Below are positions 52,415 through 56,555 of a stretch of DNA of 64,000 bases, piece by piece (the stretch's first letter is position 1; each line of letters begins with the position of its first letter). The notes beneath the pieces are model-generated. The model saw nothing but the letters and a program-made list of their open reading frames with translations. It had not been told where the DNA came from and did no database searches. The DNA is taken from positions 435,606 through 499,605 of the forward strand of contig NZ_MKSQ01000008.1 in assembly GCF_001898115.1 (NCBI RefSeq). The letters run 5' to 3'. A program made the position numbers and the translations under genes. Origin of the DNA: Allobosea sp. 67-29. GTDB taxonomy: Bacteria; Pseudomonadota; Alphaproteobacteria; Rhizobiales; Beijerinckiaceae.

Positions 52415-53116
52415 CTATCGAGCGAGTTGCTCGATCAAGCCCCGCAACGGCCCCAGATCCGGGATGACGCGATAGCGGCCATGCCCGACCGGCTCCTCGG
52501 CGTGCTCCAGCGCCCAGGTCAATTCATGCGGCACATGGACCGCCCAGGATCCCGCTTCCAGGGCCGGCAGGATGTCCGATTTCAGCGAATTGCCGACCAT
52601 CATTGCCCGCCCTGCCCCGTCGCCGTGACGCGCAAAGACCCGGTCGTAGGTGGCGGGCTTCTTGTCGCTGACGATCTCGACCGCATCGAAGAAATCGCCG
52701 AGACCGGACTGGGCGAGCTTGCGCTCCTGGTCGAAGAGATCGCCCTTGGTGATCAGGACCAGCCGGTAGTCGCCGGCCAACGCCGCCAACGTCTCGCGGG
52801 CGTGCGGCAGCGTCTCGACGGGGTGCGCCGCCATCTCGCGGCCGGCGGCAAGGATCTCGCCGATGACGGCCGCGGAAACCTGGCCTTTGGTGACCTCGAT
52901 CGCCGTCTCGATCATCGAGAGCACGAAGCCCTTGATGCCGAAGCCGTAGAAGCCGAGATTGCGCTTCTCCGCTTCCAGGAGGCGCCCGGAGATCTCGGCC
53001 GCCTCGCCATGGGCGCCGAGCAGCGCGACGAAACGGTCCTCCGTCATTCGGAAGAACTGCTCATTCTGCCAGAGCGTGTCGTCGGCATCGAAGCCGATGG
53101 TGGTCAGGCTTGACAT
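52415..53116 (-). CDS. HAD family hydrolase
   Basis: IGFDADDTLWQNE, LVLITKGD, MMVGNSLKSDILPALEAG. Confidence 0.92.
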   Translation of the reverse strand: MSSLTTIGFDADDTLWQNEQFFRMTEDRFVALLGAHGEAAEISGRLLEAEKRNLGFYGFGIKGFVLSMIETAIEVTKGQVSAAVIGEILAAGREMAAHPVETLPHARETLAALAGDYRLVLITKGDLFDQERKLAQSGLGDFFDAVEIVSDKKPATYDRVFARHGDGAGRAMMVGNSLKSDILPALEAGSWAVHVPHELTWALEHAEEPVGHGRYRVIPDLGPLRGLIEQLAR

Positions 53117-53130
53117 AGCTCGCAAGGTCC

Positions 53131-53685
53131 TCAGCCGGACGCGAAGCAGGAAGGGGGTAGCGTTTGCCCCTCCCAATCGGCATAGGCGTCGGGTGCCAAC
53201 ACCCGGACCGCCACCGGCTTTTCGTCGGCGCCGGGCGAGGCATCCCGATCGCCGACCTCTCCAGGTGGCAACTTGATGGTGGCTTCCTCGATCCGCCCGG
53301 GAATCCCGCTCAAATCCAGACCGAATTGCGGCAGCCGCCACGGGCGGATCGTATCGCTCGCCGTCACCAGCAGACGCACGGGCGTATCGGCCGGAAGCAC
53401 GAGAGTTCCATTTACGATGCAGTCGTCGTCGGAGCCCGCTCCGCCCGGCTGGAGATAATCGTAACGCCAACCTTGCGATGTGCCGGTCGCGAGGATGCGG
53501 CGAGCAGGCTCCTGCTCTTGCGGATGGCTCTGCACGAGCAACTCCAGCGCCTCGCGGCAAGGCTTCTGCATCGCGGCAGGCTGCCCACTGCAAAGATCGG
53601 GCGTCTGCGCCACCGATGGGGCAGCAAAACCGCAGCCCAAGGCTAGCAGCAACCCGCCGAAGCTGGTGAGCCGCCCGCCCGTCAC
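53131..53685 (-). CDS. Exported protein with COX2-like cupredoxin domain lacking recognisable CuA ligands
   Basis: Signal peptide; GWRYDYLQP...GTLVLPADTPVRLLVTASDTIRPWRLPQFGLDLSGIPGRIEEATIKLPPGEV...KPVAVRVLAPDAYADW parallels the COX2 periplasmic domain. Confidence 0.65.
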   Translation of the reverse strand: MTGGRLTSFGGLLLALGCGFAAPSVAQTPDLCSGQPAAMQKPCREALELLVQSHPQEQEPARRILATGTSQGWRYDYLQPGGAGSDDDCIVNGTLVLPADTPVRLLVTASDTIRPWRLPQFGLDLSGIPGRIEEATIKLPPGEVGDRDASPGADEKPVAVRVLAPDAYADWEGQTLPPSCFASG

Positions 53686-53688
53686 GGC

Positions 53689-56373
53689 TCAGCCATCCTT
53701 GGGCCTGATCGCGCCCAGGGCCGCCTGCGCGGCGGCAAGCCGGGCGATCGGCACGCGGAAGGGCGAGCAGGAGACGTAGTCGAGGCCCACGCTCTCGCAG
53801 AAGCCGATCGAGGCCGGGTCGCCGCCATGCTCGCCGCAGATGCCGAGCTTGATGCCGGAGCGGGTCTTGCGGCCGCGCTCGGCGGCGAGCTTGACCAATT
53901 CGCCAACGCCGTCCTGATCGATGGTGACGAAGGGATCGGCCTCCAGCAGGCCCTTGGCGGTGTAGGAACCGAGAAAGGACGAGGCGTCGTCGCGGCTGAT
54001 GCCGAGCGTTGTCTGGGTCAGGTCGTTGGTGCCGAAGGAGAAGAACTCGGCGCTTTCGGCGATCTCGGCGGCGCGCAAGGCGGCGCGCGGCAGTTCGATC
54101 ATGGTGCCGACCTGATAGTCGATCGTCGTGCCGCTCTCCTGCATCACCGCCTTGGCCATCGCGTCGATGCGGGACTTGACCAGATCGAGCTCCGGCTTGC
54201 CCATCACGAGCGGCACCATCACCTCGGGGATCACCGGCTTGCCGGTTTCCCTGGCTGCGATGACGGCGGCCTCGAAGATTGCGCGGGCCTGCATCTCGGC
54301 GATCTCGGGGAAGGCGACGGCGAGGCGGCAGCCGCGGAAGCCGAGCATCGGGTTGAACTCGTGCAACTCGGCGGCGCGCTGGCGCAGTGCATCCGGCGTG
54401 ACGCCGAGCGCGCCGGCGACCTCCGCGATCTCCTTGTCGCCGTTCGGCAGGAACTCGTGCAGCGGCGGATCGAGCAGGCGGATCGTCACCGGCAGGCCGC
54501 TCATGATGCTGAAGAGCTGGACGAAGTCCTGGCGCTGCACCGGCAGCAGCTTGGCGAGCGCGGCGCGCCTGCCCTTGTCGTCCTGGGCGAGGATCATCTC
54601 GCGGACCGCCTGGATGCGGTTCTCGTCGAAGAACATGTGCTCGGTGCGGCAAAGGCCGATGCCCTCGGCGCCGAATTCGCGGGCGGTCTTGGCATCCTCC
54701 AGCGTCTCGGCATTGGCGCGGACCTTGAGGCGGCGGACCTTGTCGGCCCAGCCCATCAGCGTCGCGAACTCGCCGGAGAGTTCCGGCTTCTGCATCTTGA
54801 TCTCGCCGAGCAGAACCTGGCCGTTGCCGCCGTCGATGGTGACGAAATCGCCGGCCTTCAGCGTCGTCGGGCCGACCGAAAGCGTGCCCTTGGCGTAGTC
54901 GACGCGGATCTGTCCGGCACCGGAGACGCAAGGCTTGCCCATGCCGCGCGCGACGACCGCCGCATGCGAGGTCATGCCGCCGCGGGTGGTGAGGATGCCT
55001 TCGGCCGCGTGCATGCCGTGGATGTCCTCAGGCGAGGTCTCGACGCGCACGAGAATGACCTTCTTGCCGGCCTTCTTGGCAGCTTCGGCATCGTCCGAAT
55101 TGAACACGATTTCGCCGGCGGCGGCTCCGGGCGAAGCCGGCAGGCCGGTGGTCAGCACGCGGCGCTCGGCCTTGGGATCGATGGTGGGGTGCAGGAGCTG
55201 GTCGAGGGCCGAGGGCTCGACACGGCCGACGGCCTCTTCCTCGGAGATCAGCCCTTCGCTGGCGAGATCGACCGCAATCCTCAGCGCCGCCTTGGCGGTG
55301 CGCTTGCCGGACCGGGTCTGCAGCATCCAGAGCTTGCCCTCCTGGATGGTGAACTCCATGTCCTGCATGTCGCGGTAATGCTTCTCGAGGATGCCGTAGA
55401 TGCGGACAAGCTCCGCATAGGCCTCCGGCATCGCCATCTCCATCGACGGCTTGTCGGAACCGGCCTCCTTCTTGGCCTTCTCGGTGATGTCCTGCGGCGT
55501 GCGGATGCCGGCGACGACGTCCTCGCCCTGCGCGTTGATCAGGAATTCGCCATAGAGCGCGTTCTCGCCGGTCGAGGGATTGCGCGTGAAGGCGACGCCG
55601 GTCGCGGAGGTGTCGCCCATGTTGCCGAACACCATCGACTGGACGTTGACCGCCGTGCCCCAGCTCGCAGGGATGCTGTTGAGCTCGCGATACTTGATGG
55701 CGCGGGCGTTCATCCAGGACGAGAAAACGGCGCCGACTGCGCCCCAGAGCTGCTTCTCGGGCTCCTGCGGGAAGTCGGAGCCGAGCGCCTTCTTCACGAT
55801 GTCCTTGTACCGGCCGACCAGCACCTTCCAGTCCTCGGCCGAGAGGTCGGTGTCGAGATGGAGGCCCTTGCGCTCCTTGTAATCCTCCAGCGCCTCCTCG
55901 AAGAGGCCGTGGTCGATGTCGAGCACGACGTTGGAATACATCGTGATGAAGCGGCGGTAGCTGTCCCAGGCGAAGCGGGCGTCGCCCGAAGCCTTGGCCA
56001 CCGCCTCGACCGTCTCGTCGTTGAGTCCGAGGTTGAGGACGGTATCCATCATGCCCGGCATCGAGGCGCGCGCGCCGGAGCGAACCGAGACGAGCAGCGG
56101 GTTGGCCGGGTCGCCGAAGGTCTTGCCGGTGAGCTCCGCCATGCCGGCGAGCGCGGCCTTGACCTGCGCATCCAGATCGGCGGGGAACTGCTTGCCGTGG
56201 TCGTAATAGTAGGTGCAGACCTCGGTGGTGATGGTGAAGCCGGGCGGGACAGGCAGGCCGAGATTGCTCATCTCGGCCAGGTTCGCGCCCTTGCCGCCGA
56301 GCAGGTTCTTCATCCCCGCCTCACCTTCGGCCTTGCCGTCGCCGAAGGTGTAGACCCACTTCCCACCTGCCAT
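53689..56373 (-). CDS. ppdK: Pyruvate, phosphate dikinase
   Basis: MAGGKWVYTFGDGKAEG; GGKGANLAEMSNLGLPVPPGFTITT; TRGGMTSHAAVVARGMGKPCVSG (phospho-His); SFGTNDLTQTTLGISRDD; GICGEHGGDP. Confidence 0.97.
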   Translation of the reverse strand: MAGGKWVYTFGDGKAEGEAGMKNLLGGKGANLAEMSNLGLPVPPGFTITTEVCTYYYDHGKQFPADLDAQVKAALAGMAELTGKTFGDPANPLLVSVRSGARASMPGMMDTVLNLGLNDETVEAVAKASGDARFAWDSYRRFITMYSNVVLDIDHGLFEEALEDYKERKGLHLDTDLSAEDWKVLVGRYKDIVKKALGSDFPQEPEKQLWGAVGAVFSSWMNARAIKYRELNSIPASWGTAVNVQSMVFGNMGDTSATGVAFTRNPSTGENALYGEFLINAQGEDVVAGIRTPQDITEKAKKEAGSDKPSMEMAMPEAYAELVRIYGILEKHYRDMQDMEFTIQEGKLWMLQTRSGKRTAKAALRIAVDLASEGLISEEEAVGRVEPSALDQLLHPTIDPKAERRVLTTGLPASPGAAAGEIVFNSDDAEAAKKAGKKVILVRVETSPEDIHGMHAAEGILTTRGGMTSHAAVVARGMGKPCVSGAGQIRVDYAKGTLSVGPTTLKAGDFVTIDGGNGQVLLGEIKMQKPELSGEFATLMGWADKVRRLKVRANAETLEDAKTAREFGAEGIGLCRTEHMFFDENRIQAVREMILAQDDKGRRAALAKLLPVQRQDFVQLFSIMSGLPVTIRLLDPPLHEFLPNGDKEIAEVAGALGVTPDALRQRAAELHEFNPMLGFRGCRLAVAFPEIAEMQARAIFEAAVIAARETGKPVIPEVMVPLVMGKPELDLVKSRIDAMAKAVMQESGTTIDYQVGTMIELPRAALRAAEIAESAEFFSFGTNDLTQTTLGISRDDASSFLGSYTAKGLLEADPFVTIDQDGVGELVKLAAERGRKTRSGIKLGICGEHGGDPASIGFCESVGLDYVSCSPFRVPIARLAAAQAALGAIRPKDG

Positions 56374-56555
56374 CACTTCAACCTCTTCGTTTGCAGCCGG
56401 ACGCAGCAACGCCGCGGCGATGCGAAAGTTTCGTGTGCGAGCCACCGATGCCGTACCGGCACCCGCAGCGGGACGCGGCGGTCATGCCCAAAAGCACCTG
56501 AACAATCAATGAGCAGGTGCAACAAACTTTCCGCAGGCGCACAAGCGACGACGCA

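Follow-up and report, generated by a model that had tools for sequence, protein, structure and literature searches.

The gene and its product

The window analysed here is a stretch of 64,000 nucleotides from Allobosea sp. 67-29. On its minus strand, which carries all the window features described below, positions 53131 to 53685 encode a copper-free protein of 184 amino acids that resembles COX2, subunit II of cytochrome c oxidase. The frame begins with a GTG codon, 10 bases upstream of which an AAGGA motif can be read, and ends with TGA. Four Bosea genomes contain same-locus orthologs with 78-90% identity to the window protein, the frames are intact in five Bosea genomes, and pairwise dN/dS among the Bosea orthologs is 0.08-0.32, which indicates that the gene is maintained as a protein. 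The four orthologs and the dN/dS values together mark 53131-53685 as a real gene under purifying selection.

The product is predicted to begin with a signal peptide (residues 1-26, 53608-53685), likely cut between SVA and the following Q. This call is based on a hydrophobic N-terminus, present in all 14 members of the family described below, and on a small-x-Ala motif, both read from the sequence. A preliminary description of this DNA had taken the protein to be exported and devoid of the transmembrane (TM) helices of COX2; the signal-like stretch agrees with probable export, and there is no TM-like segment beyond it. The place of the COX2 TM region is occupied by an N-terminal helix (residues 37-52, 53530-53577), in which A46, L49 and L50 are invariant in an 11-member alignment. 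The helix is followed by a cupredoxin barrel (residues 63-163, 53197-53499). Within the barrel, R114 (53344-53346) occupies the position of the first CuA His, and the eroded CuA loop (residues 141-156, 53218-53265) has no Cys, His or Met. Two cysteines that are not found in COX2, C89 (53419-53421) and C180 (53146-53148), are invariant in the family and are proposed to be disulfide partners. A second Cys pair, C32 to C43 (53557-53592), is common to the Bosea, g29 and G641 members.

Relationship to oxidase subunit II

The preliminary description had likened the protein to the periplasmic domain of subunit II, and both profile and structure comparisons bear this out. The Pfam COX2 profile (PF00116) matches residues 91-137 with an E-value of 1.8e-7 and 31.5 bits, above the cut-off of 22, and Pfam families other than COX2 gave no match to the window protein. 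All 11 members of the first family set match PF00116, and solved COX2 chains match the window protein in sequence at about E 3e-8. The NCBIfam CoxB profile (TIGR02866) covers residues 47-138 with an E-value of 8.6e-12, but its 45 bits are far under the cut-off of 147.7, so that the window protein is not an orthologous subunit II.

An AlphaFold2 model of the window protein, built on an 11-sequence alignment, has a barrel whose core blocks are mostly at 86-93 pLDDT (pTM 0.62). Its top Foldseek match is Bradyrhizobium CoxB in complex with TlpA (4TXV, E 9.5e-12), followed by 4W9Z (E 5.9e-11) and then by other COX2 chains. A second model, of the divergent G088 member, matches 2YEV (E 1.5e-9) and 4TXV (E 8.7e-9). 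The COX2-type cupredoxin fold is thus supported by the profile, by the solved-chain matches and by two models, and it is close to certain that the window protein has a COX2 fold and lacks CuA. With CoxB (e.g. Bradyrhizobium 4W9Z and 4TXV) it shares the barrel fold, the PGR motif and the second Trp of W-x-W; it differs in having a short loop and in lacking the CuA ligands, the entry Trp and the TM helices, while the family as a whole has an extra Cys pair and no oxidase operon.

Loss of the copper site

The two replacements from which the loss of CuA had originally been deduced are present, namely DTIRPW for DVIHSW and PGEVGDRDASPGADEKP for GQCSELCGxxHxxMP. The reference set comprised 72 rows of canonical subunit II, none of which departs from the entry Trp or from the ligands H, C, C, H and M; because the rows were chosen by a Cys motif, the constancy of Cys among them is partly a result of selection. 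The Bosea proteins retain none of the five ligands (two Cys, two His and Met). Alignment of the Bosea loop is uncertain, as residues have been deleted there too, but the missing Cys and His are independent of the alignment. The sole His of the mature window protein, H54, and its sole Met, M39, both precede the barrel, and because they lie outside it neither CuA nor another copper site can be drawn in this protein. The large loop of subunit II is also missing. The electron-entry Trp, fixed in the canonical rows, is gone in 14 of 14 family members and is Q or E in Bosea. To judge by these residues, the window protein cannot carry electrons the way subunit II does.

A survey of the orthologs, which the preliminary description had suggested, revealed that loss of CuA ligands is conserved among them and marks a wider family. 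Ligand loss, as read across the members, is graded. In the Rhizobium, XES5 and G466 proteins the loop has its original length and the first His and the Met are retained, whereas the two Cys are replaced by Ala and Ser and the other His by Tyr or Phe; given the two remaining ligands, weak metal binding by these proteins is possible. The first His is the only ligand retained by the G641, G495 and G543 members, and none is left in the g29 and Bosea members. Partly and fully eroded proteins thus occur side by side in one family.

The family and its distribution

The 14 members were collected by a profile search of the order and then by tblastn of plasmids. The former found distant members in G088 and G453, in G641, and in G495, G543 and G466, which belong to three Hyphomicrobiales genera besides Bosea/Allobosea. 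The latter added members from XES5 (WP_226922008.1, labelled 'hypothetical protein', on a plasmid filed as 'Roseateles'), Rhizobium leguminosarum WSM2304 (WP_012555280.1, on pRLG202, labelled 'cytochrome c oxidase subunit II') and R. acidisoli. A short frame in G1056 was rejected, because it belongs to an ordinary subunit II that retains every ligand and is cut off at a contig end.

All 14 proteins are 173-221 amino acids long and have a single N-terminal signal-like segment with no further TM-like stretch. The equivalents of C89 and C180 are invariant throughout, and the mature proteins carry two or four Cys, nearly always paired. WP_012555280.1 and WP_226922008.1 are like the Bosea protein in being exported, in having the invariant Cys pair and a dead CuA loop, and in belonging to the same clade; they differ in retaining the first His and the Met, neither of which the Bosea protein has.

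In a tree that included aa3-type, caa3-type and CyoA rows, the 14 members form one clade (support 99/98), separate from aa3- and caa3-type subunit II and from CyoA, with an attachment point that is unsure owing to long branches. In an 11-member tree without caa3 rows the support of the clade is 100/99. The clade supports a single origin of the family, to which the shared cysteines also point independently. The gene is scattered among rhizobia and their relatives, and its presence is patchy: it was found in 5 of 67 genomes of Bosea/Allobosea, 2 of 5 of g29, 3 of 5 of g276 and 1 of 41 of g344. A search for phage or viral carriage of the family found none. The open literature searched, which omits most subscription papers, contained no paper on such a family.

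Genomic neighbourhood

The gene is flanked by a gene that reads as ppdK (pyruvate phosphate dikinase, 53689-56445), whose stop is 3 bases before the GTG, and by a HAD hydrolase gene (52415-53116), which starts 14 bases after the stop of the COX2-like gene. It had been described as an orphan, and with respect to PF00116 it is the sole match on the window's contig; the true subunit II and CyoA of the host genome sit on other contigs. Nor did any of the neighbourhoods examined show an oxidase gene next to a family member.

Four other genomes of the genus have the gene at the same place after ppdK. In the close relatives G012 and G018, ppdK directly adjoins HAD, and comparison of these loci identifies the gene in the Bosea subclade as an insertion between the two. 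In the HAD tree, close relatives without the gene (G012, G023 and G030) fall inside the carrier group, which implies either a single insertion followed by loss or replacement, or several separate gains of the gene. The linkage with ppdK and HAD, which the preliminary description had proposed to survey, holds in the Bosea subclade and breaks down in the other genera, where the neighbours differ. A functional link with these genes as a rule was rejected, since ppdK and HAD are adjacent without the gene in G012 and G018 and the family lies elsewhere in other genera. These other loci are between genes reading as rsmB and guaA, between DUF2711 and GNAT genes, after an Lrp-type gene, and near hutH.

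Several of the loci have particular features. The interval between ppdK and HAD (window 53116-53689; L049-L058) is occupied by an MFS-like gene in G023 and by other sequence in G030 and others. In G002, ppdK and the family member are kept, HAD was not found, and a DEAD-box helicase gene is next (L045, 9672-12628). In G641, PAAR and DUF6881 genes come next after the family member on the same strand, in an operon-like arrangement (L107, 6694-7973). On both Rhizobium plasmids (L152, 4836-6041; L153, 4836-6066) it is followed by a gene for a 180-residue exported protein of no known family and then by hutH.

Comparison with quinol oxidases and copper proteins

Subunit II of quinol oxidases (CyoA, QoxA) is a COX2 domain that has lost CuA (PMC6431628). 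The loss of CuA is thus known inside oxidases; here it is found outside any oxidase. CyoA is a membrane-bound oxidase part, whereas the family members have no TM anchors and lie outside oxidase operons. The less eroded members have CyoA-like replacements, in which Cys has given way to Ser or Ala, and His to Phe or Tyr. An origin from CyoA was rejected, as the CoxB model outscores the CyoA/QoxA models in every family member tested and the tree separates them. Because the family is nearer to CoxB, the CyoA-like replacements are read as convergence. As a separate observation, subunit II genes of the caa3 type are present in some Bosea genomes (L154, L155 and L157); their products have a cytochrome c motif at the C-terminus and, as in the family, a short loop.

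PCuAC (PMC9145763) and PmoD (PMC6189053) are small periplasmic cupredoxin-type copper proteins. Both are, like the window protein, small, exported and cupredoxin-like, and both bind copper via conserved His/Met or Cys, of which the Bosea protein has none.

Possible function

The reading favoured here, with moderate confidence, takes the window protein to be a periplasmic binding protein derived from the COX2 cupredoxin domain, free of copper and probably stapled by a disulfide. The cupredoxin domain of cytochrome c oxidase subunit II would have become a stand-alone periplasmic protein with loss of CuA and of the TM anchors. A C89-C180 disulfide may close in the periplasm; it would fasten the C-terminal tail onto the barrel and could stabilise the barrel in place of copper. 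The barrel would then work by binding a periplasmic protein or ligand. A weak point of this explanation is that no neighbour is conserved across the family. More tentatively, the proteins may constitute an undescribed family of copper-free COX2 cupredoxins with a non-respiratory periplasmic role (binding, inhibition or immunity), in which living intermediates of a stepwise loss of CuA have been preserved.

Among the possible partners of such a protein, oxidase biogenesis factors are ranked above secreted effectors. The protein could be a partner of the respiratory oxidase: by imitating subunit II and docking on Sco, PCuAC, TlpA or subunit I, it would promote or restrict the assembly of apo-subunit II. 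It has the fold of CoxB, on which the Sco, PCuAC and TlpA factors act (PMC9145763), its best structural match is the CoxB-TlpA complex, and the host has a complete subunit II. However, the Cys pair on which Sco and TlpA act is missing, no member of the family adjoins an oxidase gene, and most genomes with the same oxidase do without the gene (5 carriers among 67 in the genus), which makes such a partnership rather unlikely. A role as a periplasmic immunity protein or inhibitor that counters a secreted effector, e.g. of a type VI system, is less probable still. The G641 gene directly precedes PAAR and DUF6881 genes, and the family is patchy, exported and fast-diverging; the PAAR linkage, however, occurs in that one lineage and is not constant, PAAR genes are found in carriers and non-carriers alike and are absent from the g29 carriers, the Bosea neighbours are metabolic genes, and the family has no match in the defence library.

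Two further readings return to the copper site itself. It is very improbable that the proteins are metal carriers with a novel mode of metal binding: the Rhizobium, XES5 and G466 members do retain the first His and the Met of the loop, but no further His or Met is conserved in the family, and the one His and one Met of the mature Bosea protein are both outside the barrel. Loss of ligands and patchy presence would also be expected of a decaying pseudogene of subunit II. This has next to no probability, given the derived Cys pair common to several genera, and for the Bosea clade it is excluded by the dN/dS of 0.08-0.32 and the intact frames in five genomes.

If the favoured binding-protein reading is true, a respiratory electron-transfer domain has been reused as a plain binding scaffold, with its TM anchors gone and a Cys pair gained. 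The coexistence of partly and fully eroded members makes the path of metal-site loss open to direct study. At least one public name, 'cytochrome c oxidase subunit II' for WP_012555280.1, appears to be wrong in function. The plasmid that carries the XES5 member (NZ_CP084753.1) has minCDE, putA and homogentisate pathway genes which, like the family member, look rhizobial, and its organism name (Roseateles, flagged as unverified in its record) is possibly mistaken.
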